Positions 13,926-36,087 of a stretch of DNA of 64,000 nt are shown piece after piece. Position numbers and translations under genes: made by a program. The stretch is from Lachnospiraceae bacterium (GTDB lineage: Bacteria; Bacillota; Clostridia; Lachnospirales; Lachnospiraceae), in assembly GCA_017396555.1 (NCBI GenBank), contig JAFQLS010000027.1:1-64000 (forward strand). The letters run 5' to 3'. Under the pieces are notes generated by a model. The model saw only the letters and a program-made list of their open reading frames with translations. It had not been told where the DNA came from and did no database searches. Within the stretch, counting starts at the first letter, position 1. The number at the start of each line of letters is the position of its first letter.

Positions 13926-14000
13926 ATATGAATAAAAAAAGAACAAATTTGATTGATATTGATAAAAAAAGCTTTATTTATTGTCGAATTAGTGATAGAA

Positions 14001-14006
14001 TATAAT
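14001..14006 (+). promoter_or_regulatory. Possible -10 box of the type IV pilus operon
   Basis: A perfect TATAAT lies 28 bases before the pilB start. At 17 bases upstream the sequence is TTATTG (13978-13983), a poor -35 box. A TAAA (13963-13966) followed after 16 bases by GTCGAATT (13983-13990) is only loosely similar to a sigma-28 promoter. The position before the first pilus gene makes a promoter likely; which sigma factor reads it is unclear. Confidence 0.3.
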
Positions 14007-14033
14007 TTATTAGAGAAAAAAGAGGTTGGTAGT

Positions 14034-15746: not shown

Positions 15747-15768
15747 TAAGAAATAGGAGGAAATAATA

Positions 15769-16925: not shown

Positions 16926-18143
16926 ATGCCTAATTTTAAGTATACCGCTTACGACAGTAAGGGTAAAGAAATCAAAGGAACGATTGAAGCGAGCGATATG
17001 CAGGAAGCTTCGAAGAAGATTAAAGCCGAAGGTAACACACCGATATCGGTTAATGAAGAAGGATTACTTGATAAAGATTTGAACATAAGCTTTGGAGGCA
17101 AGAAAGTAAAGGTTCGAGATTTGTCAGTATTCTGTAGACAGTTTGTAAGTATAGTAAGATCTGGTGTAGCTATTGTAGATGCTCTTGAGATGTTGGCTAT
17201 GCAGACCGAGAATCCTAATTTGCAGGGAGCTATACAGGATGTTATGACATCAGTGCAAAAGGGTGATACTCTTGCTAATAGTATGAGACTGAGAAAAGAT
17301 GTATTTCCTAATCTTCTTATTACAATGGTTGAAGCGGGTGAAGCTTCCGGTAGTTTGGAGATAGCTTTTGACAGAATGGGTACACAGTTTGAAAAGGATG
17401 CAAAATTAAAGGGTATGATGAAAAAAGCCCTTATGTATCCGATAGCGATTATGGTTGTAGTTATAGTTGTAGTTATAGCAATGATGATGTTCGTTATTCC
17501 TACGTTTGCGGATATGTATGCGGATATGGGGCAGGAATTGCCACTTATTACCAGAATGGTAGTCGGACTTAGTAACTTTCTTATTGATAACTGGTTACTT
17601 TGTCTTATAGGAGTGTTTGCTATTGCAGCAGGATATAAAGTGTTTGCAAGAACTACATTTGGTTCTTATCTGATAGCGGATATTTCGAGAAAAGTACCGG
17701 TGTTTGGTGTTTTAACAGTTAAGTCTGCGAGTGCCTCGTTTGCAAGAACACTTTCAACATTGGTTGCAGCAGGTGTGTCTATGATGGATGCTCTTGAGAT
17801 TACGGCTAAGACTATGACTAATTTGAGATTTAGAGATGCGGTTATGGAAGCAAAGGAAAAGGTGGCACAGGGTCGTCCTTTATCAGAACCGCTTAAAGCC
17901 AGTGGAATATTTCCACCTATGATAGTACATATGATTGGTATCGGTGAAGAAACCGGTAATATGGAGCATATGCTTGATACGGCAGCTTCTTATTATGAAG
18001 AGGAAGTGGAGAATACTACAGCTCAGGTTGCTACGCTTCTTGAACCTATGATAGTTGTGGTTATGGCGGTTATTGTAGGTGTAGTAATTATGGCGGTTCT
18101 TATACCAATGTTTGGTATGTATGAAATTGCCGGTGAGTCGTAA
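16926..18143 (+). CDS. pilC: Type IV pilus inner-membrane platform protein PilC
   Basis: Polytopic membrane protein at the base of the pilus machine, which couples ATPase motion to pilin insertion. The N terminus reads MPNFKYTAYDSKGKEIKGTIEA as in PilC/GspF. Two GspF domains follow, each with the repeat pattern (VFCRQFVSIVRSGVAIVDALEMLA and SFARTLSTLVAAGVSMMDALEITA) and the EAGE/GEETG motifs (VEAGEASGSLE, IGIGEETGNMEHML). Membrane spans occur near residues 170-195, 225-245 and 380-400. Length of 405 residues is standard. GAGAGGAG stands upstream of the ATG. Confidence 0.95.
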   Translation: MPNFKYTAYDSKGKEIKGTIEASDMQEASKKIKAEGNTPISVNEEGLLDKDLNISFGGKKVKVRDLSVFCRQFVSIVRSGVAIVDALEMLAMQTENPNLQGAIQDVMTSVQKGDTLANSMRLRKDVFPNLLITMVEAGEASGSLEIAFDRMGTQFEKDAKLKGMMKKALMYPIAIMVVVIVVVIAMMMFVIPTFADMYADMGQELPLITRMVVGLSNFLIDNWLLCLIGVFAIAAGYKVFARTTFGSYLIADISRKVPVFGVLTVKSASASFARTLSTLVAAGVSMMDALEITAKTMTNLRFRDAVMEAKEKVAQGRPLSEPLKASGIFPPMIVHMIGIGEETGNMEHMLDTAASYYEEEVENTTAQVATLLEPMIVVVMAVIVGVVIMAVLIPMFGMYEIAGES

Positions 18144-18172
18144 GAGACTGCGTATAGAAGAAGGTGAGATTT

Positions 18173-18589
18173 ATGAAGAAGGATAACGAAGGTTTTTCAT
18201 TAATCGAATTAATAATTGTTATAGCTATTATGGCAGTACTTGTTGCGATAATAGCACCTAATTTAACCAAGTATCTTGGAGAGTCGAAACATAATGCAGA
18301 TATCGCTAATATGGATACTGTCAAAGAAATTATTGAACAGGCATGTGCTCTTAGCGGAGTAGAATGTTCAGAACCTACTAATCTTGGAACATGGGTTGAA
18401 TTAAAGGAAGGTAGTGCGTACTATAATTCGACTGCTGCAAATGTTAATGGATATATGGCGTTTCCAAGATATGTGGCAAGCGTGCTTGGTGAGGTTCCGG
18501 TATCTAAAGAAAACGGCAAGAATTTCGAGGTAAAGATAACCGGTTCCAGTGGTGACAGATATACTGTAGAGATAAGGGTAAAGCCTTAA
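18173..18589 (+). CDS. Type IV prepilin (pilin 1 of a sister pair)
   Basis: Prepilin of 138 residues with a short leader KKDNEG and class III-type cleavage site before FSLIELIIVIAIMAVLVAI; Phe1 and Glu5 of the mature pilin are present. The hydrophobic helix and the following IAPNLTKYLG are identical to the next gene, while the globular part differs and carries two nearby cysteines (ACALSGVEC). The start is the ATG at 18173 with AAGGTGA upstream; the frame also opens with a GTG at 18164. It may be a minor pilin or alternative major subunit. Lower use of C-ending codons than in its sister suggests lower expression. Confidence 0.85.
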   Translation: MKKDNEGFSLIELIIVIAIMAVLVAIIAPNLTKYLGESKHNADIANMDTVKEIIEQACALSGVECSEPTNLGTWVELKEGSAYYNSTAANVNGYMAFPRYVASVLGEVPVSKENGKNFEVKITGSSGDRYTVEIRVKP

Positions 18590-18604
18590 TAACTAAATGG
18601 TCAG

Positions 18605-18618
18605 AACGCGCTAGCGTT
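18605..18618 (+). promoter_or_regulatory. Small hairpin before the main pilin gene
   Basis: AACGC (18605-18609) pairs with GCGTT (18614-18618) around a GCTA loop; the whole is a near-palindrome. It sits between the two pilin genes. It could protect the downstream pilin message or be a protein-binding site; neither is shown. Confidence 0.35.
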
Positions 18619-18660
18619 TATGATAAATAAAATAATATAATTAAAAGGAGAGTTGGTTTT

Positions 18661-19077
18661 ATGAAAAAAACAAACAACAAAGGTTTCTCATTAATCGAGC
18701 TTATCATCGTTATTGCTATTATGGCAGTATTAGTAGCGATTATTGCTCCAAACTTAACAAAGTATCTTGGTTCATCTAAGACAAGTGCAGACACAAAGAA
18801 TCTTGATGAAATTCAGTCTACACTTAATACTTGTATCACAGATTACGAGATGAGCAATTCTACATTGATTGCTAATGGTGCTTCAACAACTGTTACAGCT
18901 AAATGGACATCAGCAGGATTAACATCAACAGGTATCACATCACTTGATGCTATTATCAATGGTGCTATTGACGCTACTAAGTGCCAGAGTAAAGAAGATA
19001 CTTCTAAATGGGCACAGGCTGTAATTTCAAAGGATTCTTCTACAAATGCTTATGTAATTACAATGAGCTGGGTGTAA
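18661..19077 (+). CDS. pilA: Type IV prepilin, probable major pilin
   Basis: Prepilin of 138 residues: leader KKTNNKG, cleavage before FSLIELIIVIAIMAVLVAI, then a Thr/Ser/Ala-rich globular domain with two cysteines (NTCITDY and ATKCQSK) that could form a disulfide. Mature residues Phe1 and Glu5 are present. AAAAGGAG lies upstream. Codons for Ile, Asn, Thr and Phe shift toward ATC, AAC, ACA and TTC compared with neighbours, the usual sign of a highly expressed gene, so this is the likely main filament subunit. It shares about its first 30 mature residues with the preceding prepilin, indicating an old duplication. Confidence 0.88.
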   Translation: MKKTNNKGFSLIELIIVIAIMAVLVAIIAPNLTKYLGSSKTSADTKNLDEIQSTLNTCITDYEMSNSTLIANGASTTVTAKWTSAGLTSTGITSLDAIINGAIDATKCQSKEDTSKWAQAVISKDSSTNAYVITMSWV

Positions 19078-19094: not shown

Positions 19095-19844
19095 ATGGAA
19101 GCGTTATTACTTATTATTACAATTACATATGGAATCTTAATTGGAAGCTTCTTAAATGTTTGCATTTATCGAATTCCTAATGGTGAGAGTATAGTAGTGA
19201 CGCGTTCACACTGTATGAAATGTGGAAAACAGATCAAGTGGTACGATTTAGTGCCACTTGTGAGTTTTCTTGTTTTAAGAGGAAAATGCAGATATTGTAA
19301 GGATAAGCTGTCATGGCAATATCCGGCAGTAGAAGCGCTTAATGGTATCTTGTATGGCATTATTGTCATTGTTAATGGCTTTAATGAGGTTAGTATATTA
19401 TACTGTCTTGCAACATCAGCCTTGCTGACACTTAGTATAATTGATTGGAGAACCTATGAGATACCGGTTGGATTTAATATTTTTATAGGAATACTCGGAG
19501 CTATCAGAGTGTTGACAGACTTGGAGCATTGGTATGATTATGTCATAGGCTTTTTTGCTGTGAGTCTATTTTTACTTATTCTTTATTATGCAACCAACGG
19601 AAAAGGTATTGGTGGCGGAGACATAAAACTGATGGCAGCGGCAGGCTTGCTTATTGGATGGAAACTTATAATCCTTTCGCTTGGATTAGGGTGTATATTA
19701 GGTTCTGTCATCCATTTGATCTTAATGAAAGTTCAAAATAAAGATAGAGTCCTGGCATTCGGACCATACCTATCATTAGGTATATATATTTCCATGCTAT
19801 ATGGAGAACAAATAATAGATTGGTATATTAGTACTATGTTTTAA
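19095..19844 (+). CDS. pilD: Prepilin peptidase / N-methyltransferase
   Basis: Membrane aspartic protease that removes prepilin leaders and methylates the new N terminus. The protein has the N-terminal A24 segment GILIGSFLNVCIYRIP, a cytoplasmic loop with two CxxC pairs (CMKC, CRYC) for zinc, the first catalytic aspartate in LSIIDWRTYEIP, and the second in GIGGGDIKLMAA. Six to eight membrane spans are apparent. The 249-residue length is typical of bifunctional enzymes. AGGTGA precedes the ATG. It serves the seven or so prepilin-like products of this operon. Confidence 0.95.
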   Translation: MEALLLIITITYGILIGSFLNVCIYRIPNGESIVVTRSHCMKCGKQIKWYDLVPLVSFLVLRGKCRYCKDKLSWQYPAVEALNGILYGIIVIVNGFNEVSILYCLATSALLTLSIIDWRTYEIPVGFNIFIGILGAIRVLTDLEHWYDYVIGFFAVSLFLLILYYATNGKGIGGGDIKLMAAAGLLIGWKLIILSLGLGCILGSVIHLILMKVQNKDRVLAFGPYLSLGIYISMLYGEQIIDWYISTMF

Positions 19845-19893: not shown

Positions 19894-21522
19894 ATGGCGG
19901 CTAAAATATTGACAATAGAAATCGGTAATGATTTCATTAAAATTTGTGAAGCTCAACAGCTTAAAGGAAAAACAGTTACAGTACACAATGCGGTATCTAT
20001 TCAGACACCGGAAAATGCTGTGGAAGATGGTATAATTAGAGATATGGAAGGAGTAGCAGCAGCTATTCGTAATGCAATGACTGATGAACAGATAGTAGCA
20101 AGTTCAGTTACATTTATTTTATCATCAGCAAGAGTTGCTTCTAAGGAAGTAATACTTCCAATTATAAAGAAGGAAAAAATACAGGAAATGATCAATGTTA
20201 ATGCATCTGAATATTTCCCAATTAATATAGACGATTATGTATTGTCATATACAGTATTAGAAACTAAGAACACTAAGGAAGAGAAGAAGACAAGAGTTCT
20301 CGTGTATGCTGCACCGGAGCATATGGTTAAGGGTTATTACCAGCTTGCAGAATTATTAAAGATGAAGGTTACAGCAGTAGACTTCGTAGGTAATAGTACA
20401 ATGCAGTTGGTTAAAACACAGATTGATGACAGACCTACACTTGTTATTCAGATGGGTATGGATGCAACAATTGTTTCGGTAATGAACAAAAAAGTTCTTC
20501 AATTACAGAGAACTGTTCCTTATGGCGAGTCTTTGTTACTTAATGCTGTTATGGAAGAAAAGAAGGTTTCAGCTAAGGTTGCGATGGAACTTTTAGGTCA
20601 GGCTAAATTAGTAAAGGCTAAAATAGATGAAGATAAGACAACAGAATCACTTAAGTATCTTGTAAGTAATGTTAACAGAGTGGTTGAATATTATACAGGA
20701 AGAAATGCTGAAGCTCCACTTCAGAAAGCTGTAATCATCGGTGATGGTGCAGAGGTTCTTGGACTTGATGAATTATTTACTAATGAATTAAGCCTTACAA
20801 CAGAGAGAATCACATTGCTTAAGAATGTTGAGTCTTATAACAGAATTAAGTTATCTACATCACTTCTTAAGTTATATATGGCAAATATTGGTGCTACACT
20901 TTCACCAATTAATTTCCAGTTAAAGGAGCAGAATGCTTCAAAGGAGAAGGCTGCCGGCAAGAAACAGGCTAATAGTGCTATATATTATATTGTTGGTCTT
21001 GTTGGGATAATTGCTGCAATAGGTCTTTATGCAATTCCTGCGTTTATGTATTTACAGAAGGAAGCAGAGAAAGAGCAGATTGAGAAGGATATTGAAGAGA
21101 TTAAAGGTATTGAAGCAACAATGAATGAATATTATGCTTCTGAAGACAGATTGCTTGATTTACAGGCATTTGTACTTACAACAGAGAATGATAATGAGTG
21201 GACATTAGAGTTTATTAAGACATTGGAAGAAAAAATGCCTGCTAAGATGGAGATAACTAATCTTTCGGCAACTGATGGAGTAGTAAGTATTATGGGTGCG
21301 TGTGCATCTAAGGATGATGTTGCGGATTTAGTTGTATCATTAAAGAGTGTTAAAAATATAATCGATGTACAATGTAAAGTTGTAACTGAAACTAAAGATA
21401 ATCCTGAAAAGGGAACTAAATCAGGAGTTTCATTTGATATGCAGTGCACATACGTAAACGATGTTGATAAATTGGCAGAACAAGAAACAGCAGAACAGAC
21501 AACAGCTGCTCAGGCTGAATAG
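19894..21522 (+). CDS. pilM: PilM-PilN fusion protein of the pilus alignment complex
   Basis: 542 residues that combine two proteins usually encoded separately. Residues 1 to about 330 are an actin-like PilM (ILTIEIGNDFIKICEAQ start, YFPINIDDYVLSY, LVIQMGMDATIVSVM). Near residue 338 comes SPINFQLKEQ, the short cytoplasmic motif by which PilN normally docks on PilM, followed by a membrane segment at about 360-383 (IYYIVGLVGIIAAIGLYAIP), a coiled coil and a PilN-like extracytoplasmic domain, then a Glu/Thr/Ala-rich tail. The fusion hard-wires the PilM-PilN contact. PilO is encoded next. The start has GGGAGG upstream. High confidence for both halves, judged by motif and order. Confidence 0.88.
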   Translation: MAAKILTIEIGNDFIKICEAQQLKGKTVTVHNAVSIQTPENAVEDGIIRDMEGVAAAIRNAMTDEQIVASSVTFILSSARVASKEVILPIIKKEKIQEMINVNASEYFPINIDDYVLSYTVLETKNTKEEKKTRVLVYAAPEHMVKGYYQLAELLKMKVTAVDFVGNSTMQLVKTQIDDRPTLVIQMGMDATIVSVMNKKVLQLQRTVPYGESLLLNAVMEEKKVSAKVAMELLGQAKLVKAKIDEDKTTESLKYLVSNVNRVVEYYTGRNAEAPLQKAVIIGDGAEVLGLDELFTNELSLTTERITLLKNVESYNRIKLSTSLLKLYMANIGATLSPINFQLKEQNASKEKAAGKKQANSAIYYIVGLVGIIAAIGLYAIPAFMYLQKEAEKEQIEKDIEEIKGIEATMNEYYASEDRLLDLQAFVLTTENDNEWTLEFIKTLEEKMPAKMEITNLSATDGVVSIMGACASKDDVADLVVSLKSVKNIIDVQCKVVTETKDNPEKGTKSGVSFDMQCTYVNDVDKLAEQETAEQTTAAQAE

Positions 21523-21539
21523 AGAAGGAGATGAATGAT

Positions 21540-22244
21540 ATGAAAGATAACAAAGCTGGTATTGGACAATACATTCCGTTAATATTCTTATTATTGGGCC
21601 TTGGTCTTGCAGTAGTTTCATATTTGTATGGATATCAGGCTTTTAATGAGAAAACAAATACTATTAATGATGAGATTAAAGTACTCGATGAGAGATATAA
21701 TAATTTAAAGAAGTTATATGATAATAAAAAACAGTTCGAAGAAGATAAAGAAAAGAAAGATGCAGAATATGAAAAGTTACTGGGCGAATATGATGCAGAT
21801 GTTACTGATGAATCAGTAATTATGGATTTATTTAACGCACAGAACGAACATAAGTTACATATAAGCAACATTACTATTAGCCAGAAGGTGCCGGTATATT
21901 CATTTGGTCAGTTAGCATCAGTTAATCCAAATAATCCGCAGATTTCCGGAATTAATTCATCGTTTATTGGCTCTGAGAAGGAATATACTATTCAAGGTGA
22001 AGCTGCTTATGATTCTGTAAAAGCTTTTATGGATGATTTACAGAACACTACAAGAAAGAGAAGAGTTCCTACCACTGTAACTTTAAGATATGATGATGAA
22101 GACAGAATAGTAAAATTTAATTACACTGTTAAAGAGTATGCAATTAGTGGTGACGGATTAGAACCATTAGATGTTAATATTCCTACTAAGGAACATGGAA
22201 ATGAAAATATCTTTGATGTAGGTGTTGTTTACGTAGAAGAATAA
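21540..22244 (+). CDS. pilO: Pilus assembly protein PilO-like
   Basis: A 234-residue protein with one N-terminal membrane helix (YIPLIFLLLGLGLAVVSYLYGY, about residues 10-31), a long charged coiled coil (about 32-90) and a small alpha/beta extracytoplasmic domain (SFIGSEKEYTIQGEAAYDSVKAFMDDLQ). This is the PilO/GspM plan, and it follows the PilM-PilN fusion with which PilO should pair. The ATG at 21540 is preferred because AAGGAG (21525-21530) directly abuts the alternative ATG at 21531. Sequence identity to well-studied PilO is low, so the assignment rests mainly on layout and position. Confidence 0.78.
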   Translation: MKDNKAGIGQYIPLIFLLLGLGLAVVSYLYGYQAFNEKTNTINDEIKVLDERYNNLKKLYDNKKQFEEDKEKKDAEYEKLLGEYDADVTDESVIMDLFNAQNEHKLHISNITISQKVPVYSFGQLASVNPNNPQISGINSSFIGSEKEYTIQGEAAYDSVKAFMDDLQNTTRKRRVPTTVTLRYDDEDRIVKFNYTVKEYAISGDGLEPLDVNIPTKEHGNENIFDVGVVYVEE

Positions 22245-22279: not shown

Positions 22280-23440
22280 ATGGGTAAAAATAATAAAAAC
22301 AAAGGTTTTACCTTGATTGAATTAGTTATAAGTGTTGCCATTCTGGCGATTGTAACAGCTCCAATTCTAAATGCGTTTGTTATTGCAGCTAAGAATACTT
22401 CAACAGCTAATGCCAGACAGATAGCTAATAATCATGCTGAAAGTGTCATGGAGAAGTTCAAGGCAACATCATTTGAAATGCTTACAGAGGAATTCACTCT
22501 TATAGATAAGGCTGTAATAGCCGATAATGAGGGTACAAAGTATTATTATTATGATGTTGCAACAGATAGTTATGTATTTAGCGTTCCAGGTTCGGAATTA
22601 TCAGGTGGTGCATCTGATAATTTCCGAGTGGATGTTACTATGAAACCGGAAAAATATGATGCACCTGACTTGGCAGATGTAGATGGAACTAAGACAGCAA
22701 TGTTGATTAGTGAGGTTTACAGATATGATGAGAATGCATTAATTGAGCTTACTGCATTAGCAAATGCAAAGGATGATAGTCTGAAATATCAAAAGTTTGA
22801 TAAGATTGATGCTAGTGGTAATCCTAATGCTTCTCTAAGTGAAAATATACGTGACAATATTGTACGTGAAGTATACATAGAAATCATGTATGGTACGGGT
22901 ACAGCACCATATTCAGTATTGGTTGATGTGTCTTATTCATGTAAGATTGGTTCGGCATTGACAGTTAGCAAGGTATATCAGAAGGTTTTCCTTAATAATT
23001 ATGAGAATGTACCTGATGTGCTCATGTTTTATGCACCTTATCAGTATACGACACCTGGATTATATAGAGACAAAATAATTGTTAATAATAGTATTCCGAA
23101 TGATGTTATTCTTGCAGCAGGAAAGAAGAGCAAGGTGTATATTTCTAATCAGGAGGTATCAGCAATATCAGGCTGTACACTTAAGTATCAGGCTGGTGGC
23201 GGAAATATCGTTATCAAAGAAAATAATCTTGAGAAAGATATATACAGTGATAACTTGACAACAGGTCTTAGAAATACGGAAGTGTTATTATCAGAAAGTA
23301 TTACTGGTGCACCATCAGGTGAAACTAATTCTTTGGTTGGTAAGAAAGAAGCTGTAAAAATATATGGTTTAACAGTTGATGTATTTTGGAATGGAGAAAT
23401 TACAAATACAATGGTGTCAACAACAGATGGACAGAACTAG
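22280..23440 (+). CDS. Large minor prepilin (PilV/GspI-like)
   Basis: 386 residues with a class III prepilin start: leader GKNNKNKG, cleavage before FTLIELVISVAILAIVTAPILNAF, Glu5 present. The segment after the helix (ANARQIANNHAESVMEKF) resembles PilV/GspI minor pilins, where an ANA-A-E pattern is usual. The remaining 330 residues are beta-rich and much longer than a typical minor pilin. GGGAGGAG lies upstream. Likely part of the minor-pilin initiation complex with the next three genes. The exact minor-pilin type is inferred from order and the helix end. Confidence 0.8.
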   Translation: MGKNNKNKGFTLIELVISVAILAIVTAPILNAFVIAAKNTSTANARQIANNHAESVMEKFKATSFEMLTEEFTLIDKAVIADNEGTKYYYYDVATDSYVFSVPGSELSGGASDNFRVDVTMKPEKYDAPDLADVDGTKTAMLISEVYRYDENALIELTALANAKDDSLKYQKFDKIDASGNPNASLSENIRDNIVREVYIEIMYGTGTAPYSVLVDVSYSCKIGSALTVSKVYQKVFLNNYENVPDVLMFYAPYQYTTPGLYRDKIIVNNSIPNDVILAAGKKSKVYISNQEVSAISGCTLKYQAGGGNIVIKENNLEKDIYSDNLTTGLRNTEVLLSESITGAPSGETNSLVGKKEAVKIYGLTVDVFWNGEITNTMVSTTDGQN

Positions 23441-23449
23441 GAGGGTTAT

Positions 23450-26023
23450 ATGCAAAGATTATTCAGATTAAGAAAAGATAATAGAGGCGATACTCTTGTT
23501 ATAGTCTTAGTAGGAATCTTCCTGGTAGGATTACTTGGTTCTGCTATATTGGCTAGTACTGTAGTAAACTATGAAATGAAGAGTATAGATAGAGGAAATA
23601 AAAAGACGTTCTATACAGCTGAACAGGCTTTAGATGAAGTTTATGCAGGTATCGGTAATGATGTAATGTTAAGTATGCAATATGCGTACTCGTATGTTCT
23701 TGATAATATGTTGGAAACAGATCCAACTACGGGTAAATATGTTACCGGTGATAATGATGAATTAAATAAGGCATTCAGAAATATCTTTTATTATTCATTG
23801 ACATTACAGGAGCCGACAGACAAGGCGACTAACTGGACCAGTATTAAGAGTGATATTACTTCAGAGGTTGCATCTACTCCGACAGACTTGTATAATAAAA
23901 ATGATCCTTATGCCGTATATAAGAATAGTGATAGAACGGCATTAGAGAATTATTTGAACGGATTTGTTAACGCAACAGTTTCTACATATGCGCCTGAAGT
24001 GTCAATTAATACTTCTGCCGGTAGTGTTGCTGTTATGTATACAGCTAAAACAGGTGTGGATAATGATGGAAATAATGTTACAATTGATACATTTACTTTA
24101 AAAGATGTATTAGTTACATGTACAACGGATCAGGGAGTAACAAGTAATGTATCTACAGATATCATAGTAGAAGTACCAATTATTGATATTAACTTCTCAG
24201 AAGTAACATCAATTGATTATGGTGAGTTGTTAAAATATTCAATTGTTGCAGAAGGAGATACAACATCGACAGATGCAACTATGACTGTTAATTCTAATCT
24301 TTCTGTAAATGGTAATGTATATGCAGGTAAACTTGCCTCAGATAATAAGGTTGGTATAAAGCTTGACAGTGCTATATTTGATATGACTGGAAGTAATATA
24401 GTAACTTCCGGAGATTTTATTCTGGAGGATTCACAGTTTAAGTTAAATAGAGCAGATACAGCTGCAAGCTTAAGATTTTGGGCTAAGAATCTTATAACCA
24501 CAGGTAATGAAGATGTAATCGAGATGAATAATACAGATTGTATCCTTAAGGATGATTTACAGATAGAAGGTTCAGCATCAAAAGTAACTATTACAGGAAG
24601 CTATTATGGAATAGGATATCGTGACGATGGAACCGGTGTCGAGGCTGACAGTGAAGAAAATGATTGGGCATACTTTGAGTCAGCAGGAAGACAGGCTTTT
24701 GATGCAGATGGAAATCTTGTAGGAAGTCCTATACAGTATGAGCATGAGAGAAGTAGTGCTATTCTTGTTAATGGTGGTGAAGCTTCACTTGATTTTAGCG
24801 GTCTTGATAATTTATTTTTAGCAGGAAGAGCTTATGTTGACTTGCTTAATCCTGATGATGTAGGTGTTAATTCTACATATATGACAGGTGAGTCAATATC
24901 TATTAAGGGTAGTCAGGAATCGTATCTTGCTGATTATACATCAACTGAATATTTTAATTTCGTTGATGGTAAACCGGTTGTACTAACAAATCCGGTTACT
25001 GAGGAATTCTTTGATACTAAGGTTAAAGGTAAAAATATTCTAACTGATAAGACTGTAGCCAAGAAAGTAGGCTCTAGTGTGTATTTTTACAAAAAAGTCA
25101 GAAGTCCGCTTGAACAGACAAAGACTTATGAAGAATATTTTAATATAACAAAGAATAAGAGAACACTTAGGGAAAAAGTAGATAATTTAGGTGTTGAAAA
25201 GTTATTGATTGGCAATAATACAAATATTTTGTCGGTTGGTACATTACTTAAAATCGATCACAGCTTAACAGAGACACAGAGTGTTTTGGTTATGAATCAC
25301 AATGTAGAAAATGGTAATGCTGTTAATGTCGTATCAGGAAATAAGTTTTATAGTAAGTCATTTGTTAATTATGTATCTGATTGTAATGTAAGATTTAAGG
25401 CTATGCTTACAGAATTAAAGGATTATGGTGATATTGTTGATTACAGTGTTCCATCAGCATATATTACATCCATAAATAATTCAACAGCCACACCGATTAC
25501 AACATATATTAATGCAGATAATTTTGAGAAGATATTTGATATGACTTTGGATGGACTTGATATGAGTAAGGTGGCTGGTAATACATATGTTAATTCATTG
25601 GAAACAGTTGCCAGTGGTGTATTTACTTCACAAGAATATGCTGATTACAATATTAATAATTCAAGAGCTAGTATAATCATTACTAAGGAATCTGACTATG
25701 TTTTGGACCCAAGTGTTGATTGCGGTGTTGTTATCGCTTCTGGAAATGTCAAAGTTACAAGTGACTTTACGGGAATAATAATATGCGCAGGTGATATTGA
25801 GGTTGATAATCCTGTTGGCAATATTGAGCTGAATTCGCATGCTAATCTTGTTAGATGGCTTGCTGATAATGATACAACATTTTCACAGTGTTTAAAGGGT
25901 TATTTATCAGTTAGTGAATCAGGTGATGGTGATGCTACAGGAAGTGTTACTATCAATAATATTAGTTATCAGGATTTAGTATCATATCAGAATTGGAGGA
26001 AGCTGTCACCAAATGCTTCATAA
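23450..26023 (+). CDS. Very large PilX/GspK-like minor pilin, candidate pilus tip protein
   Basis: 857 residues. The N terminus (RKDNRGDTLVIVLVGIFLVGLLGSAILAS) has a prepilin-like leader ending in Gly and a hydrophobic helix, but mature position 5 is Ile rather than Glu. A missing Glu5 is the hallmark of GspK, the tip-most pseudopilin. The segment TFYTAEQALDEVYAGI is like the AEAAL region of PilX/GspK. The rest is Thr/Asn/Asp-rich, beta-strand-prone, and lacks a sortase motif. AGGAGGG is upstream and the gene sits among other minor pilins. A tip adhesin or initiator is the best guess; the bulk of the sequence is not recognised. Confidence 0.72.
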   Translation: MQRLFRLRKDNRGDTLVIVLVGIFLVGLLGSAILASTVVNYEMKSIDRGNKKTFYTAEQALDEVYAGIGNDVMLSMQYAYSYVLDNMLETDPTTGKYVTGDNDELNKAFRNIFYYSLTLQEPTDKATNWTSIKSDITSEVASTPTDLYNKNDPYAVYKNSDRTALENYLNGFVNATVSTYAPEVSINTSAGSVAVMYTAKTGVDNDGNNVTIDTFTLKDVLVTCTTDQGVTSNVSTDIIVEVPIIDINFSEVTSIDYGELLKYSIVAEGDTTSTDATMTVNSNLSVNGNVYAGKLASDNKVGIKLDSAIFDMTGSNIVTSGDFILEDSQFKLNRADTAASLRFWAKNLITTGNEDVIEMNNTDCILKDDLQIEGSASKVTITGSYYGIGYRDDGTGVEADSEENDWAYFESAGRQAFDADGNLVGSPIQYEHERSSAILVNGGEASLDFSGLDNLFLAGRAYVDLLNPDDVGVNSTYMTGESISIKGSQESYLADYTSTEYFNFVDGKPVVLTNPVTEEFFDTKVKGKNILTDKTVAKKVGSSVYFYKKVRSPLEQTKTYEEYFNITKNKRTLREKVDNLGVEKLLIGNNTNILSVGTLLKIDHSLTETQSVLVMNHNVENGNAVNVVSGNKFYSKSFVNYVSDCNVRFKAMLTELKDYGDIVDYSVPSAYITSINNSTATPITTYINADNFEKIFDMTLDGLDMSKVAGNTYVNSLETVASGVFTSQEYADYNINNSRASIIITKESDYVLDPSVDCGVVIASGNVKVTSDFTGIIICAGDIEVDNPVGNIELNSHANLVRWLADNDTTFSQCLKGYLSVSESGDGDATGSVTINNISYQDLVSYQNWRKLSPNAS

Positions 26024-26059
26024 TAATAAGAACTAATGGTGAGAGGGAGGAGAACTTTT

Positions 26060-26608
26060 ATGGAAAAAAAGAATAACAAAGGTTTTTCGCTGATAGAAAT
26101 TATTGTTGCATTAGCTATTATGGGGCTTTGTGTAGCGGGTGCTGTATCATTGTATAGTTCTCTATCCGGAGCAAAGGTTAATAGTGCAGCGACTAAGCTT
26201 GATAGTCAGTTATCTTTAACGAGAACAAATACGCTAACAAAAAAAGGTGATTGGATATTAGAGGTCAACAAAACATCGGGAAAATATTATGCTATATTAT
26301 TCTATGATGGAGATGGAACCGGCTTGGAAGAATTCAAGAAGGTTGAACTTGGTGATGCGGGCAGCATTGATATAAAATATACAAAAGTTATCTATGATGC
26401 CACATCAGGCACGACAACAAAGACACCTGGAGTAGCTATAGATACCGTTCCTATGAAAATTGGATATGATAATGGTTCGGGTGCCTGTGTTGCAGTAACT
26501 ACTCATGGAGTGACTAATTATTATGTTGGCGATATTACAATAACTGATGGTAAAAAGACAAGAGAAATATCTATAACAAGGGCAACAGGTAAGCATTATT
26601 TGGATTAG
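26060..26608 (+). CDS. Minor prepilin (GspH/FimT-like)
   Basis: 182 residues starting MEKKNNKG with cleavage before FSLIEIIVALAIMGLCVAGAVSLY; Glu5 is present. A stretch after the helix, AATKLDSQLSLTRTNTLTKKG, resembles the GspH/FimT pattern with a basic hinge followed by strands. The start at 26060 is preferred because GGGAGGAG (26044-26051) precedes it; the frame opens at 26036 without a ribosome-binding site. Probably one of four minor pilins that prime filament assembly. The GspH-like label is tentative. Confidence 0.82.
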   Translation: MEKKNNKGFSLIEIIVALAIMGLCVAGAVSLYSSLSGAKVNSAATKLDSQLSLTRTNTLTKKGDWILEVNKTSGKYYAILFYDGDGTGLEEFKKVELGDAGSIDIKYTKVIYDATSGTTTKTPGVAIDTVPMKIGYDNGSGACVAVTTHGVTNYYVGDITITDGKKTREISITRATGKHYLD

Positions 26609-26626
26609 TGAAAGGAAGATGTTGAT

Positions 26627-27256
26627 ATGAATAAAACACAATTAAATAATAAAGGCTTTTCGCTAATTGAAATGCTTATAAGTTTGGCAATAGCGGGATT
26701 TGTAGTTGTTTCGGCTATAACTGTTGTAACTTATGCTATGAGAATGTATGGAAATGGTTCTAAGGAAACAAAAATCCAGTCAGAGGTTCAATTTACCGGT
26801 AATCTTGTTGGAGATTTGATAAAAACAGGAAATAGCACAAAGTCGTATATAGTGGTTAACAAGGACACCGTGGGAAATGTTATTGAAGTGTATGTATTTC
26901 CTTCAGCTGGTCTTGATGCACTTGGCAATATTGATACATCTACAGGAGTTACTAAACAGTATTTGTATTATAATGTTTCAAAGAAATCATTATATGTATA
27001 CGAAGGTAATGAAACCGTTGATACCTCTGATGAGGATGATATGAGCTTACATTTAGTTAGCAGATTTATAGAAAATTTTAGTGCTGAATATGTACAGACT
27101 AAGAAAGATGTAACTGTAAATAATGACATTTATCCTACAGATGATATGAAGGATATGTATGCAAGTGATTCAAATGTAATCAAGGTTGACATTGATTATA
27201 AGGTTAATGAGAGAAGCAAGAGTACATCAATCACTTATAAGATTAGAAATAAATAA
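26627..27256 (+). CDS. Minor prepilin (PilW/GspJ-like)
   Basis: 209 residues, leader NKTQLNNKG, cleavage before FSLIEMLISLAIAGFVVVSAITVV with Glu5. The helix is followed by EVQFTGNLVGDLIKTGNSTKSY, which is like the QLRQDL-type region of GspJ/PilW, then a beta-rich domain. It is the last recognised prepilin of the cluster and precedes the giant gene by 11 bases, so the two are cotranscribed. Its neighbours complete a likely GspH-I-J-K style set. The exact subtype is inferred. Confidence 0.82.
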   Translation: MNKTQLNNKGFSLIEMLISLAIAGFVVVSAITVVTYAMRMYGNGSKETKIQSEVQFTGNLVGDLIKTGNSTKSYIVVNKDTVGNVIEVYVFPSAGLDALGNIDTSTGVTKQYLYYNVSKKSLYVYEGNETVDTSDEDDMSLHLVSRFIENFSAEYVQTKKDVTVNNDIYPTDDMKDMYASDSNVIKVDIDYKVNERSKSTSITYKIRNK

Positions 27257-27267
27257 CAGGAGGGAAA

Positions 27268-30200
27268 ATGATGAAAAAATTTATTGGAAGACATAGAAAA
27301 GTAATTTCATTAATGGGTGTATTATTAGCCGCAGTCATTATCTCTGTTGTGACTTTCGGTGGAGTTGTGAATGATGTTATCGCTGGAGTATTCAAAGGGG
27401 AAAATGACAAGGATAAGGTTGCAAAGGATAGTACTAACAAGATAGTAATTCTTGAAATCGTTCCTCAGTATGGACAGCAGATATTAGGATATACAATTCC
27501 GGGATATGAACCAATTACTAAGGAGGCAATTGAGGCATATCCTGTCAATAACGGAGGAAGATTAAATCCGACAAGTGCAGATTTCAAAAATGCTACAGGT
27601 TGGGTAGTAAAAGAAGCTTCAGGAAAATATTATGTAACAGATAATGTTTTAGAGGATTCGTTTAATGCAAATGTATTAGCTGAATCAATGGATGTATACG
27701 AGAATGCTGAAATTGAACTTATTGTTAAACAGGCAAATGATGTAGTTGCAAAAGATATTACCAATTGTGACCTCATTTATGTTAATAATCCGATTGAGAA
27801 TAGTAGTAACTTATTATATTATTATGATCAGATTATGAACTATGATGCTAGTACAAATAAATTTAGCGATAAAGTTGAGCAGGGAAATGTTGGAGCATAT
27901 TATGATAGTGTTACATATGAAGATACACTTGCAAAAGAGTTAGCAATGAGATTAATCAGAAATGCTGCAGGACGTGTAACTGCCAAAGACCTTGAAACAG
28001 CAATGAGCGAATATTTTGCTAAAATTGGTATTACAAATACCAGAAGTATTTTTGAGATAGCTGGTATGGAGAATTATTATGAATATAATAATGCAGAGTA
28101 CATTTTAGCTATAGAGGAAGCTGAAAAAGGAAGCATTTCAGAAGAAGAAGATTTAGATATCTTATTATCAAGAATTAATTTGAGAGTTAGTGAAGAATCT
28201 AAGAATAGAATATATGAAATCTCAAAAGATGCATCTTACTTTAATAATGAAGAAAATAAGGAAGAATTCAAAACTTTGTTGAAAAAGGCAGCTCTTGTAG
28301 ATACTAACACAGGTCTTCCTTTATACATTGAAGAGAATTTTGAAAGTTATGCATATTCCGATGATGAGATAAGAGAAGGATATTTTGACAGATTTAAGAG
28401 TATGTGCTCGCAAGGTGCAATTACAATGGAATCATCAATATATTCAACACTTACATCTGTTAACGGAAATATGAGTAACACTATGTTAAATGTTATCAAT
28501 AGAGCATTGGCAGATACATCTGATGAGCGTGTTGATAATATTAAAAATAAGTTGAGTGCAGAGATTTTTGTAAAATTAAATTATGATATTGTTGATGCAC
28601 TTAATGCAGAACAGTATGCAGAAGAGCTTTGTAAGTCAAGTGAGGTATCATCAACATCTCTTATGGAGTTAATTACTAAGGTTAACGAAGAAGAGAAGAA
28701 TGTTTCAAGACGTAAAATCGCAGAAGCAGCAGGAAATGAAGCATTGATTTCAGAGCTTACACATAGAGATTTTGCAGTGGCATTATTTGAAATTTATGAA
28801 GAGGATTTCCTTGACAAATATAAAGAAGCATTGGTAAATGCTAATAAGGATGACTTAATTAATGTTGAAGTAATTGATATGCCTGTTTATACAGAGGATT
28901 CGACATCAAATGTAATTGTACATTTTAAGTCTGGTGTTGATTGGGAATCAAAATATGTTACTGTTGAATATTTAGCCGAAGGTGCAGAAGATTATGTGCC
29001 ATTAGAGGATAAAGCTTTAGTTTCTGAAGATGTTAATGGATATTATAGAGTAGTTCTTGGTGCTATGCCGGAAGCTACTGTTATTAAGAACTTAAGATTA
29101 ACATTTAATAATGTTGCTACTGTTATTGAAGAAGAAACAGAAGAGGAGTCATCAACAGAAGAGGAGTCATCAACAGAAGAGGAGTCATCAACAGAAGAAG
29201 AGTCATCAACAGAAGAAACTACGGAAGGCTCTGCTGTTGAGAAACTTAGCTTAGACCCAATCGAAATTATAGTGCCTGAGGAAGGAACTGTATATGGAGA
29301 GTATTGGTGTGTATATAATCCGGATGGTGCAGGTAAAGTCTTTACATCTGCTGAGGATATTAAGAACGACTTAGCATATGGAGATGAATATGCATATGAA
29401 ACAAAAGATATAGTAACATTCTATGAAGAGAATATGTTGGCAATCCTAATGGATGTGAATAATACATGTTCTATGTTACCGGGTGAAGTTACTTATGACT
29501 TCTATTCATGGGATATAGCAAAAGAGCTTTATAGATATTCAACTACTGATGAAAGTGGTTTGGTATTTAATACTGAAATTATCAAAGAAATTGGTGGTTG
29601 TAAGTATGACAGCGACCAGACAGCTATTAGAATGGATGATACAATTACAGATGCAGATAGAACTAATCTTGTATATAAGTCATTGATGGCTGTAAAGTTA
29701 TATGCTGCAGGTAAATTTAGCGATACTACGTTGGAATTGATTGATGAAGAAGGATTGTATTATGCAAATGGAATAGAGTCAGGAAATGGTGTGGATGAGT
29801 GGACACTGGGAATGTTTGGTGGAACATCTGATTATAAGATTCCGTTATATGCACTTTCTAAGCGTGTGTTCACATATGCTAATACAAAGATGACTGTAAG
29901 TTTTAATGGTTCAAACTTCATTAAGTATAATTACGATATTAATATGGATACAGTTCTTGAAAAATCAAAAGATGATATGAGTTCATATAGTGCTGATTTT
30001 AAGCGTACATGGAAGAATATCTTTGATAAGAAAGAGAAAGAGAGTCCGTCAAGCGCTTATGGATATCATACATTAGGTGATATTTTAAGATATACAATGA
30101 ATCTTTATATTAATGAATTGTACGTTTATCCTTTAAGAGTTCTTGAAATTCAACCGGCAGCTATGGTATCTGACTTTGGTACATTTTCAAGTAGTGCTGA

Positions 30201-33200
30201 TACTAAATTAGCTGGTGCAAAGAAGATAGCTGATTGGTTAAGAATAGATTACTCTGAGATGACAAATTCAAATTATTCTGATTATATTTCTATTAAGACA
30301 ATGAGTGTAAGAGAATTTAATACTCAGAATAAGGACTTGACAGCAGAATATGACCTTATATATTTTGGTGTGAATTCAGGAAATATGCGTAAAGGTTCTA
30401 ACGGAAGAACGGCATTTAATGATGATAATCTTAATGGATATGTATATACAAGTATTGGTGATAAGTTTCAGGTTAATAAATATGGTGAAAGAGGTTCACT
30501 TTGGTTAGACTATGTTGCAGTACCTAATAAAACCATAAATGATCTTGCATCGGTATATCCAGATACAGACTACAATTCAAGTGGTTATGCATACTACAAT
30601 TATAACAGAGATTATAAAATTTGGCTTAAATACTTTACACAGGCGTATGAAGGGCAAATGGATGAAAATAAGATATATACATTAGTTAATTCATATCCAA
30701 AAGCCAGAACTAGTGCTAATGATATTACAGTTAGAAAATCAGAAGAATTGATGGAATATCTTAAGGCAGGAAGTCCTATAATTTTTGATGATAAGATATT
30801 GTATGCTGATGAATATAAGACATCAAAGCAGACAACAGAGTCTAAAAACTGGTCATATGTAGACATTAATTCTAAGTTGTATCATTTTGTTATTGATGCA
30901 AAAAAACTTGGATATGATGAGGAAACAGGTACATATACAGGTAAAGATGAAGAAGGTAATGATGTATTCGCCGATGGAGGCAAATATGCAAACTTAGTAT
31001 CTGTTGATTATGCAAAATATGGTAGTACTCCGGAAAATCTTCCAACTGAAGATAAATTTAAGGGTGGTCTGTCATTTGCAACTAAGAGAAACTTTAAGAT
31101 AGACTTTGAATATAAAGAAGGTCCTAAGGAATACGATGATGGAAAAAGTCAAGGACAAATTGGTAATATTATTAAGTATAAGAACGATGATGGATCTAAA
31201 AATAAAGATTATTCAGAGTATAGAATCGTTTTGGGTGTGCCGAAAGGAATTGATATTGAATGGGTAGAAGAAAATTATGGATTCCAGATGCATATAGATA
31301 AATCTGGTCTTGGTAGATTTTCAGATGAAAATACAATTCAGCTTGATCCGGAAGTGGATTTTAATATAAGTACGAGAGAGATTTATATTGAGGGTAATTG
31401 GCCAGCAGCAGATGATGAATCTATGGGTGGTTTCATACCTTGGAAAGTTGAAGTATATTCAAAAACTAATCCTAATAATCATTATGTATATACCGGTTTC
31501 TCAGCGTTTGAGAAGATAGATAAGAACGGTAAACCTAAGGTGGAAGTTATTGAGGTATTATATGTAAAACCTGATGATAATAAAGCTAGATTTGATTTTG
31601 AAACGCAGATTGTTAATTTAACAAAGGGAAATGATCCTACATATGTTCTTCCTGAGTATACTATTAATTGTACTACTACAACGTATAAAAACTTTTCAAA
31701 TGGTGGACATTGGGATAAAGATGATGATGGTTTAGAATATGATTCTACTAATACAAAGCTTAAGGTAGGAGAATTTAATTCAAGTGCTCCGGCAGATAGA
31801 AAAGAAAAAGAATTTAATATGATTGTATTTGGTTATACAGATTCGTATACAGGAATGGATATTGATAATATTAATGCTTTGAGAGATATTGATTATTTTG
31901 TATGTTCAGGACATTCTGTAATATTCTCTCATGATAATACAGGTGAAATTGCTTCTGTTAATAATTATTCTCTTAGTGGTAATAGTTTAAAAACACAGAC
32001 TGATAGTTATTATTATGGTAAATATACAACATCATATATGAGAGGTATGCTTGGTATGGATGCATATGGAACATCATATTCACCTTCTGCATTCATATAT
32101 GGTTATGAGAAAGATAGTGCAGGAAATGCAGATTTGTCAAAACCTGTAACTAAGGAAGAAGCAGATGAAAATACGATTCTCAACCCTAATTATGTTGAAG
32201 CTATGTATAATGCACGTTTATATATTGATGATTCATATGACCCAGAGATATTTAGAGGATTGAATGAAGGAACTGTACTTAGACAGAAGGGTAGTGGTTC
32301 ATGGCCTTATGCATTAAATAATGGAACAGGAAATCAAATTTCAGTTAGTTTGCCTACTACTGAATCGGTTAGATTTACAAATAAGGGACAGGTTACAATG
32401 TATCCTTATGTACTTGGAGATACAACTGTTAAGATACTTGGAACTCACTTCCAGTATCAGGCACTTAATCTTGAAGATGAAGATGTGCAGGTATGGGCAA
32501 CATTCGATTCTACTGACAAAGATAGTTATTATGGTATGACAAGAGGAGATGGTGCTAATGGATATTATATTTATACCAAAGGCAACATTACATATTCAGG
32601 AACAGGACATACAAAAGGTACTGATAATGAAATGGAAAGAAAGCTTTTCCTTAATACTGTAGTAGCAGCAATCAAGGCAGGTAACTATGGTCCGGAAATC
32701 AAATTTACAAATTCAGATGCGGAACAGGATGGAGAATCAGTTATCTATTCGTATGATTCAGAAGAATTTGTAACACTTAAGTTCAAGGTAAGTGATGTTG
32801 ATTCTAAGGTCGGAGCAACAGGTGTATTCAGTAATGTAGATATTTTCTTTGATAAGATTGGTGATACTGATGCTGCAGGAAATGATTTGGATGATGCTAA
32901 TCCATTCTATAATGATACTTCGGATATATTATTGAATGATCCGGATGATGATATTGATATTATGAGAGATGCATCAGGCATTAATAAAGTTAACTATACT
33001 GAAGAAAATATAGAGAATAAGGTTGAGTATACAATAAAGATATCTTATGCGGATATTGCTACGTTGTATAATCAGATCCATGGTTATTCAGATGTGTATA
33101 CAACTGATGCTGAGGGTAATTACTATAAGAATGGTGTTGCAGGTTCATATAGTGCAGAGGTACAAAATCTTGTAGCTAAGTTTTTTGAGGAATACAGATT

Positions 33201-33318
33201 TGCAGTAACAGCAACTGATATCCCTAAAAACCTTAATGGTACTAATGTTAAGGGTACAGGTATCACAAAATCTGCAGTTGCAAGAGTTGCATTCAGATCA
33301 TTATTTGACCTTAACTAA
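27268..33318 (+). CDS. 2016-residue membrane-anchored extracellular protein of unknown function
   Basis: The largest gene of the window. Residues about 10-33 form a signal anchor (VISLMGVLLAAVIISVVTFGG) with no lipobox, prepilin site or C-terminal LPXTG, so it is probably anchored by its N terminus with the bulk outside. Three regions begin with a similar strand: VILEIVPQ near residue 60, RVLEIQPA near 957 and VEVIEVLYV near 1425. Each is followed by a DLIYFG-like strand (CDLIYVNN near 167, EYDLIYFG near 1026, EFNMIVFG near 1515), and the last two by GSPIIFDD and GHSVIFSHD. This hints at repeated alpha/beta domains of the glutamine-amidotransferase-like type. A linker EEESST x4 splits the protein near 625-648. 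It may belong to the Lachnospiraceae DUF5057-type proteins (uncertain). Being last in the pilus operon suggests a surface role with the pili. Confidence 0.7.
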   Translation: MMKKFIGRHRKVISLMGVLLAAVIISVVTFGGVVNDVIAGVFKGENDKDKVAKDSTNKIVILEIVPQYGQQILGYTIPGYEPITKEAIEAYPVNNGGRLNPTSADFKNATGWVVKEASGKYYVTDNVLEDSFNANVLAESMDVYENAEIELIVKQANDVVAKDITNCDLIYVNNPIENSSNLLYYYDQIMNYDASTNKFSDKVEQGNVGAYYDSVTYEDTLAKELAMRLIRNAAGRVTAKDLETAMSEYFAKIGITNTRSIFEIAGMENYYEYNNAEYILAIEEAEKGSISEEEDLDILLSRINLRVSEESKNRIYEISKDASYFNNEENKEEFKTLLKKAALVDTNTGLPLYIEENFESYAYSDDEIREGYFDRFKSMCSQGAITMESSIYSTLTSVNGNMSNTMLNVINRALADTSDERVDNIKNKLSAEIFVKLNYDIVDALNAEQYAEELCKSSEVSSTSLMELITKVNEEEKNVSRRKIAEAAGNEALISELTHRDFAVALFEIYEEDFLDKYKEALVNANKDDLINVEVIDMPVYTEDSTSNVIVHFKSGVDWESKYVTVEYLAEGAEDYVPLEDKALVSEDVNGYYRVVLGAMPEATVIKNLRLTFNNVATVIEEETEEESSTEEESSTEEESSTEEESSTEETTEGSAVEKLSLDPIEIIVPEEGTVYGEYWCVYNPDGAGKVFTSAEDIKNDLAYGDEYAYETKDIVTFYEENMLAILMDVNNTCSMLPGEVTYDFYSWDIAKELYRYSTTDESGLVFNTEIIKEIGGCKYDSDQTAIRMDDTITDADRTNLVYKSLMAVKLYAAGKFSDTTLELIDEEGLYYANGIESGNGVDEWTLGMFGGTSDYKIPLYALSKRVFTYANTKMTVSFNGSNFIKYNYDINMDTVLEKSKDDMSSYSADFKRTWKNIFDKKEKESPSSAYGYHTLGDILRYTMNLYINELYVYPLRVLEIQPAAMVSDFGTFSSSADTKLAGAKKIADWLRIDYSEMTNSNYSDYISIKTMSVREFNTQNKDLTAEYDLIYFGVNSGNMRKGSNGRTAFNDDNLNGYVYTSIGDKFQVNKYGERGSLWLDYVAVPNKTINDLASVYPDTDYNSSGYAYYNYNRDYKIWLKYFTQAYEGQMDENKIYTLVNSYPKARTSANDITVRKSEELMEYLKAGSPIIFDDKILYADEYKTSKQTTESKNWSYVDINSKLYHFVIDAKKLGYDEETGTYTGKDEEGNDVFADGGKYANLVSVDYAKYGSTPENLPTEDKFKGGLSFATKRNFKIDFEYKEGPKEYDDGKSQGQIGNIIKYKNDDGSKNKDYSEYRIVLGVPKGIDIEWVEENYGFQMHIDKSGLGRFSDENTIQLDPEVDFNISTREIYIEGNWPAADDESMGGFIPWKVEVYSKTNPNNHYVYTGFSAFEKIDKNGKPKVEVIEVLYVKPDDNKARFDFETQIVNLTKGNDPTYVLPEYTINCTTTTYKNFSNGGHWDKDDDGLEYDSTNTKLKVGEFNSSAPADRKEKEFNMIVFGYTDSYTGMDIDNINALRDIDYFVCSGHSVIFSHDNTGEIASVNNYSLSGNSLKTQTDSYYYGKYTTSYMRGMLGMDAYGTSYSPSAFIYGYEKDSAGNADLSKPVTKEEADENTILNPNYVEAMYNARLYIDDSYDPEIFRGLNEGTVLRQKGSGSWPYALNNGTGNQISVSLPTTESVRFTNKGQVTMYPYVLGDTTVKILGTHFQYQALNLEDEDVQVWATFDSTDKDSYYGMTRGDGANGYYIYTKGNITYSGTGHTKGTDNEMERKLFLNTVVAAIKAGNYGPEIKFTNSDAEQDGESVIYSYDSEEFVTLKFKVSDVDSKVGATGVFSNVDIFFDKIGDTDAAGNDLDDANPFYNDTSDILLNDPDDDIDIMRDASGINKVNYTEENIENKVEYTIKISYADIATLYNQIHGYSDVYTTDAEGNYYKNGVAGSYSAEVQNLVAKFFEEYRFAVTATDIPKNLNGTNVKGTGITKSAVARVAFRSLFDLN
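29140..29211 (+). repeat. Tandem 18-base repeat encoding EEESST, four copies
   Basis: Four consecutive 18-base units (GAAGAGGAGTCATCAACA, the last with one base changed) lie in frame within the 2016-residue protein gene. The unit is a multiple of three, so gain or loss of copies would change linker length without a frameshift. Ser/Thr/Glu content is typical of an extended, surface-exposed linker. Confidence 0.9.
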
Positions 33319-33331
33319 TTAAAGAGTTTTT

Positions 33332-33370
33332 AAAAGAGATTTGCTAAAAAATATGCAAATCTCTTTTTTT
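33332..33370 (+). terminator. Rho-independent terminator of the pilus operon
   Basis: A 12-base-pair perfect stem (33333-33344 with 33355-33366), extendable by one pair, is followed by a T-run through 33370. It lies 14 bases after the stop codon of the giant gene and upstream of the comM promoter, so it ends the pilus operon cleanly. Confidence 0.9.
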
Positions 33371-33384
33371 ATTACAGAAGTATA

Positions 33385-33413: not shown

Positions 33414-33451
33414 ATACATATAATATATAAAGTGAAGAAAAGAGGGATGAT

Positions 33452-34963: not shown

Positions 34964-35010
34964 CGAGGTGATTAGATATAGAACAGTATTGGTTATGGTT
35001 AGTTAATATA

Positions 35011-36060: not shown

Positions 36061-36087
36061 TAAATTATTTAGAAGGGAAATAGAAAA

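Follow-up and report, generated by a model that had tools for sequence, protein, structure and literature searches.

Non-pilin partners of type IV pili such as PilY1 help to set what the pili adhere to and whether they stay extended, and the PilY1 gene adjoins minor-pilin genes. According to the available parts of the literature, PilC/PilY1 proteins occur predominantly in Proteobacteria (PMC4471445) and are proposed to be presented at the pilus tip through minor pilins (PMC8179133); the accessible part of a study on Paenibacillus thiaminolyticus shows a pilus operon figure that notes hypothetical proteins of unknown function (PMC9765702). Here we analyse a 64,000-nucleotide stretch of a Lachnospiraceae bacterium (assembly GCA_017396555.1, contig JAFQLS010000027.1, positions 1 to 64,000 of the forward strand; hereafter the window), in which a type IV pilus operon ends with an open reading frame (ORF) of 2016 residues (27268-33318, + strand; Table 1) belonging to the Pfam family DUF5057 (PF16480), to which no function is attached. 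With a probability of roughly 55%, we read its product as a secreted non-pilin partner of the pilus with a PilY1-like role, perhaps located at the pilus tip. A sequence-only reading of the window had already proposed a surface-exposed pilus partner, a proposal now supported by genomic linkage, internal repeats, the fold of the third repeat (D3) and a start resembling a signal peptide.

To characterize the element itself, we confirmed that the ORF begins with ATG, contains no internal stop and is present as a single copy in its own genome assembly, which is 85% complete; with pil genes upstream, its description as an intact reading frame closing a pilus operon holds. Cotranscription, previously argued from a short gap and a shared terminator, is supported in both respects: 11 bases separate the gene from the preceding pilin gene (26627-27256), and the terminator hairpin just 3' of the stop codon (33332-33367, by reading and folding) has a minimum free energy of -17.7 kcal/mol, compared with -9.1 for shuffles (z -3.6). 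A consensus terminator scan of 26000-33600 found none, the scan being blind to loops longer than 8 nt. The suspected DUF5057 membership was established by a Pfam score of 115.9 bits against a cut-off of 27.9, covering the whole 378-position model. No NCBIfam model matched the 2016-residue protein, the search of solved structures by sequence gave no match to the whole protein, and PHROGs returned two weak matches, neither with a function. A phage or tail origin was considered and set aside, as was a vWA-type adhesin, there being no such Pfam match in the protein.

The distribution of the family ties it to the pilus. Across 200 genomes of the same family, each from a different genus, DUF5057 was found in 44, the window's own included, and in none of 14 control genomes. 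Fusions of pilM and pilN (E <=1e-19) were present in 62 of the 200, and DUF5057 was found in 43 of these 62 versus 1 of the 138 without a fusion (Fisher p 1.5e-27, uncorrected for kinship). The cut of 1e-19 was set after the list had been seen; at E 1e-3, the counts are 43 of 77 genomes with a fusion and 1 of 123 without. The co-occurrence that the sequence-only reading had singled out for a neighbourhood survey is thus nearly complete from the DUF5057 side, with 43 of 44 genomes carrying the fusion. The exception (G025, locus L059) holds a 652-residue DUF5057 piece, without a signal peptide, directly after pilB-pilT-pilC (L059:3648-9607); the 19 kb fetched contain no other pil gene, as though these had been deleted. 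Across the phylum, a draw of 398 genomes contained DUF5057 in 7, again including the window's own, and 3 of the 7 come from a single other family, whose genomes measure 5.6-6.8 Mb.

A relative search with the single 2016-residue protein found none. We list relatives collected with a DNA pattern for YYIY[SN]xGN[IV], taken from the alignment, which gave 174 confirmed loci. The best 80 of these are mostly from Lachnospiraceae, and the relatives include Roseburia faecis, Lachnospira multipara, Anaerocolumna aminovalerica, Butyribacter intestini and Mobilisporobacter senegalensis. Immediately upstream of the DUF5057 gene (<=150 bp), a pilin-like ORF was found at 40 of 43 assessable same-family loci and at 60 of 68 assessable loci of the best 80, so that homologues sit mostly at pilus loci rather than away from them. 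The two locus sets share genomes; the first derives from 45 loci in 42 of the 44 DUF5057 genomes (the short contig of G092 and the window's own locus were left out), and 2 of the 45 and 12 of the 80 were omitted where a contig end cuts the gene or its upstream side. Among the 11 loci lacking a directly upstream pilin, 7 (L050 with its twin L106, L105, L111, L113, L114 and L120) still belong to pil operons, their last minor pilin being separated from the DUF5057 gene by an ORF of 160-190 residues that we take to be CYTH-like. At L107 the upstream ORF resembles the first piece of the same gene, as in a split gene. The remaining three are L059, with its piece behind pilC, and L049 and L151, neither of which is near pil genes.

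The linkage also extends to duplicated and rearranged loci. Two genomes (G165 and G039) contain two pil operons, each closed by a DUF5057 protein; G068, also with two operons, has one DUF5057 protein by Pfam, and a 2803-residue relative ends its second operon. This relative (L184:9914-18325) matches the N-terminal-half profile at E 5.4e-42 and gives no match with the C-terminal-half profile. In three genomes of a second family (L179-L181), the DUF5057 gene is encoded on the opposite strand and is flanked by pilB-T-C-A-D-M on one side and by prepilin-type minor-pilin genes, recognised by weak matches (E 0.006 to 1.6e-6), on the other. In L182, which represents a further family of the class, it lies inside the pil locus close to the minor pilins, from which an extra secreted-looking ORF of 1234 residues separates it (L182:9165-12869). 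As the tie to the pilus survives changed gene order, it points to function rather than block inheritance.

How the protein leaves the cytoplasm was approached through 113 family members that no contig end truncates, a set in which some proteins appear twice because two collections were combined. A hydrophobic stretch is N-terminal in 103 of them, lies elsewhere in 1 and is C-terminal in 0, while an LPxTG motif occurs in 0 and a lipobox-like match in 2. The 2016-residue protein likewise has a single hydrophobic stretch, at its N-terminus, and carries no prepilin motif, lipobox or LPxTG, in agreement with what had been read from the sequence. Since the class III (prepilin) signal of type IV pilins is absent from it and from all 113 members, the protein was rejected as a pilin. 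After the helix, an [AV]xA motif is present in 79 of the 103, compared with a mean of 48 and a maximum of 62 in 200 shuffles; in the window's protein the site reads VIA-GVF, the hyphen marking the predicted cut. This excess fits a cleaved signal peptide better than an anchor, and we infer that the protein is secreted with its signal peptide removed. The single N-terminal helix seen earlier therefore stands, and its proposed role as an anchor becomes less likely.

The same features bear on an alternative in which the protein is an uncleaved, membrane-anchored assembly part that guides the filament through the thick monoderm wall, replacing the outer-membrane parts of diderms. The lone N-terminal hydrophobic helix, strict synteny with one gene per operon and great length would all suit such a part. 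However, the signal-peptidase-like motif exceeds every shuffle, the N-terminal half changes fast, and the fusion genomes without DUF5057, discussed below, would be odd for a core machine component, so that we consider this alternative unlikely.

The protein is built from three spaced segments, D1 to D3, and the strands described from the sequence alone were located in all of them: VILEIVP (60-66) and DLIYV (168-172) in D1, VLEIQP (958-963), DLIYFG (1029-1034) and IIFDD (1171-1175) in D2, and VEVIEV (1425-1430), MIVFG (1518-1522) and VIFSHD (1551-1556) in D3. D1 of the 2016-residue protein was placed by aligning it with six close and six further relatives rather than from a model of its own. 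Comparing the segments by profile, with 60 column shuffles per pair and columns at least 60% occupied in all three profiles (the D1 profile being built from relatives, with L118 as first row), we obtained probabilities of 97.1% for D2-D3 (E 5.7e-11; shuffles at most 1.9%), 86.8% for D1-D2 (E 4.2e-6; shuffles at most 0.8%) and 15.0% for D1-D3 (E 0.0018; shuffles at most 0.8%). An earlier profile comparison gave 96.5%, 77.8% and 5.1%, respectively, with unrelated segments at 3.2% or less. A first shuffle control, on unfiltered columns, was clean for D2-D3 (shuffles at most 0.4%), and shuffled D1 profiles reached 98.8%, above the observed D1 values. Because the D1 alignment has many sparse columns, the control was reset to the well-occupied ones. 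At the profile level, the comparison confirms that the three segments are related copies of one fold beyond chance, with D1 as the weaker link, reaching 15% with D3 alone. A D1 profile from which the close relatives had been left out matched residues 45-325 of the 2016-residue protein at a domain E of 5.2e-7; for the sequence as a whole the E was 1, and the bias was strong.

Of the amidotransferase-like architecture proposed earlier, the repeats and the D3 fold were upheld and the rest in part: judged from the structure models, D3 clearly has a GATase1-like (ThuA/GIFT) fold, which D1 and D2 probably share. Foldseek with the C-terminal half returned, as top rows, long alignments with low template-modelling (TM) scores and immunoglobulin (Ig) domains; the first row, a phage N4 tail protein, was rejected at TM 0.08. 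The L118 model of D1 and D2 gave no row at or below E 0.001. By sequence, D3 matched solved structures at chance level only (best an antibody chain, E 0.019), and Pfam ThuA (PF06283) did not match the window's own D3, while 8 of 70 members matched at E <=10 (best 0.0027).

Conservation is unevenly spread along the protein. Relatives are 21-38% identical to it in the C-terminal half and 13-27% in the N-terminal half, and what precedes the C-terminal half ranges in length from about 25 residues in L109 (Lachnospira multipara, 858 residues) to more than 1200 in L133. Seven residues of D3, H1555, D1556, H1727, Q1729, W1743, H1781 and E1790, are invariant in 70 sequences collected by DNA pattern. 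The YYIY[SN]xGN[IV] stretch is invariant among these loci by construction, and the D3 residues were therefore checked on alignment A1, collected through PF16480, in whose 22 sequences the same seven are invariant. (A1 comprises the window's protein plus 21 sequences from the 45 fetched loci; A2, 69 of the 80 pattern-set loci and again the window's protein, with 11 fragments, near-duplicates or oversized sequences dropped; A3, 57 of 63 sequences; A6, 69 of 70; and A7, 53 of 63.) By the strand borders of the model, H1555/D1556, H1727 and H1781 directly follow strands, whereas E1790 lies near the start of the last helix. The C-terminal ends of the strands are the usual ligand edge of GATase1-like folds, and the modelled cluster would sit where such folds bind ligand, a placement by strand order and not by spatial closeness. 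Cysteine falls short of 90% conservation everywhere in D2 (69 sequences), in D3 (70) and in the C-terminal (70) and N-terminal (57) halves, which speaks against a class-I glutamine amidotransferase and suggests that the alpha/beta domains probably act as a binding scaffold.

The invariant cluster on a ThuA-like fold, in a large, secreted-looking protein without another anchor, could also belong to a soluble enzyme or effector with its activity in D3, exported by the pilus machine in a manner resembling type II secretion. Yet D2 keeps a single invariant polar residue (D1152) and D1 none, neither keeps a histidine or cysteine at 90%, and the occurrence of one copy per pil operon, even where there are two operons, suggests a component rather than cargo; we find this explanation quite improbable. 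That the protein binds or modifies glycans on behalf of the pilus, its ThuA/GIFT domain being directed at pilin sugars or at plant or mucus polysaccharides, is a long shot: GIFT domains are proposed to bind sugars in the accessible part of one study (PMC7226087), an F5/8 type C domain occurs in the neighbouring minor pilin of L053 and a ricin-type lectin matches 1 of 22 whole proteins (E 0.00021) and 2 of 69 D2 segments (best E 1e-7), but the sugar-binding proposal rests on similarity and most scanned relatives match no carbohydrate-binding family.

Several observations weigh against a PilY1-like pilus partner. DUF5057 has no match in 19 of the 62 fusion genomes and is thus not essential to this pilus type; loci were fetched for 14 of these 19, and the profiles detected a D1-type relative in 3 and none in the other 11, with the contig of one fetched locus (L081) stopping before the relevant place. 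At L077, L087 and L088, a protein of 802-1024 residues, the D1-type half alone, occupies the same place. Two members lie away from pil genes, namely L049, a weak member, and L151, whose assembly also contains L107. It may also be that the N-terminal helix stays uncleaved, and the protein would then sit on the cell surface or within the assembly machine. The fold matches of D1 and D2, obtained through the homologue L118, are moderate, and Peptidase_C39_2 matches 7 of 69 D2 segments weakly (best E 0.002). Finally, the invariant residues of D3 suggest catalysis or specific ligand binding over a mere scaffold.

As a pilus partner, the protein would be exported by the Sec machinery, and signal peptidase would remove its N-terminal helix. 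The conserved C-terminal half (D2, Ig-like, D3, Ig-like) could then dock on the minor-pilin complex encoded upstream, at or near the tip or the base of the pilus, a step suggested by the fixed gene order and the single copy per pil operon. The long, fast-changing N-terminal half, made of D1 and its insertions, would be displayed outward and might contact surfaces or ligands as the filament, driven by PilB/PilT, extends and retracts.

Table 1. Features of the DUF5057 gene and of the pilus operon that it closes, in window coordinates.
Feature	Position	Strand	Basis or remark
DUF5057 protein gene, last of the type IV pilus operon	27268..33318	+	
Ribosome-binding site AGGAGGG	27258-27264	+	sequence; in the 11-base gap, right after the pilin-gene stop codon
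N-terminal hydrophobic segment, probable cleavable Sec signal peptide, residues 1-39, VIA-G	27268..27384	+	sequence, family statistics
Domain D1, first part, residues ~55-200, ILEIVP to DLIYV strand	27430..27867	+	alignment with relatives, D1-D2 profile, homologue model
Insertion inside D1, residues ~201-739	27868..29484	+	alignment A4; only in closest relatives or only here
EEESST low-complexity linker within the D1 insertion	29128-29229	+	
Domain D1, second part, residues ~740-930	29485..30057	+	alignment A4
Domain D2, residues ~953-1276, alpha/beta, probably GATase1-like	30124..31095	+	predicted local distance difference test 83.7, D2-D3 profile, homologue L118
Pfam DUF5057 match, residues 1151-1556	30718..31935	+	end of D2, Ig-like, start of D3
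Ig-like beta-sandwich between D2 and D3, residues ~1277-1419	31096..31524	+	
Domain D3, residues ~1420-1804, ThuA/GIFT-like	31525..32679	+	
C-terminal beta-rich, Ig-like region, residues ~1806-2016	32683..33315	+	
Intrinsic terminator of the operon	33332..33374	+	13-bp stem, 10-nt loop, T run
Presumably pilB and pilT	13953..16833	+	names taken from the sequence; used as references for relatives
pilC	16926..18143	+	GspF/PilC models
Two pilin genes (141 and 138 residues)	18164..19077	+	138-residue by NCBIfam, 141-residue by N-terminal sequence
249-residue ORF, presumably prepilin peptidase pilD	19095..19844	+	sequence and place; no NCBIfam match
pilM-pilN fusion	19894..21522	+	PilM_2 and PilN matches
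237-residue ORF at the pilO place, presumably pilO	21531..22244	+	assigned by place only, no match above curated cut-off
386-residue pilin, 857-residue protein that we take to be PilX/GspK-like, 190- and 209-residue minor pilins	22280..27256	+	N_methyl in 3 of 4; 857-residue protein by N-terminal sequence and place

Further proteins of the operon vary in size among relatives. The 857-residue PilX/GspK-like protein (23450-26023) has no Pfam match, and its counterparts, mostly of 670-1080 residues, hold the same place in most relatives whose locus extends there. Counterparts of the 209-residue pilin reach 670-1145 residues in many relatives; the last minor pilin measures 676-1075 residues in L053:7937-10630, L054:8221-10248 and L057:8244-11468. 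Scans of five long minor pilins revealed an F5/8 type C domain in L053 and Ig domains in L054, which fits a ligand-binding head on the pilus. One pil operon without DUF5057 encodes an ORF of 2475 residues with a prepilin-type N-terminus (L082:9225-16649), which may be an extreme modular pilin. Downstream of the operon (33452-38157), the window carries comM/Mg-chelatase-like, dprA and topA genes, which follow the DUF5057 gene in the same order at 5 of 45 and 11 of 80 loci, counts limited by the flanks; the pilus operon thus adjoins genes of DNA uptake and processing.

In the literature searched, we found no paper on the name DUF5057 and none describing a triple amidotransferase-like repeat or its tie to the pilus. 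Among the matches listed in a search for PF16480 or 'type IV pili', none carried PF16480, although a paper with PF16480 alone is possible. A word search of the main text of Imam et al. 2011 (PMC3244431) gave no Roseburia, Lachnospir-, Paenibacillus or PilY1, and no Lachnospiraceae pilus protein was given a PilY1-type role in the partial literature listings searched. If the proposed role is true, it offers a named target for how relatives in Roseburia, Lachnospira and Anaerocolumna hold on to mucus, fibre or each other, and it would place GIFT-type domains in a bacterial pilus system. The parts of the sources available describe such domains in ciliary transport, in glycosylation and in gliding (PMC7226087, PMC10191852). 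A bolder version, in which DUF5057 proteins are the tip proteins of a Gram-positive class of type IV pili and arose independently of PilY1, with D3 as a working ligand or catalytic site, probably a glycan-directed head of ThuA type, seems to us rather doubtful.

Compared with known families, the Pfam DUF5057 model cuts across the domains described here: D1 lies outside it, as do the beginning of D2 and the conserved C-terminal portion of D3. Set beside the ThuA-like and GIFT domains (OST48/Wbp1, IFT52, GldG), the present case differs in that three such domains, two of them with moderate fold support, occur with Ig-like spacers in one secreted, pilus-linked bacterial protein. The modular minor pilins described in the accessible part of PMC8179133, such as PilB of Streptococcus sanguinis, also put a functional module on a monoderm pilus; unlike them, DUF5057 proteins have no prepilin signal (0 of 113). 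The closest parallel is PilC/PilY1, which the available parts of two sources describe, like the DUF5057 protein as read here, as a large secreted non-pilin whose C-terminal half is conserved and whose N-terminal half varies (PMC4471445, PMC8179133). The DUF5057 gene, like that of PilY1, stands beside minor-pilin genes at most loci of both sets. The PilY1 propeller (PF05567) gave no match in the 2016-residue protein at E <=1 and none in the 200 genomes, but the control genomes were also without a match. The conserved half of the DUF5057 protein consists of alpha/beta and Ig-like domains and not of the C-terminal propeller of PilY1, and by this analogy it would work like PilC/PilY1 without being its relative.

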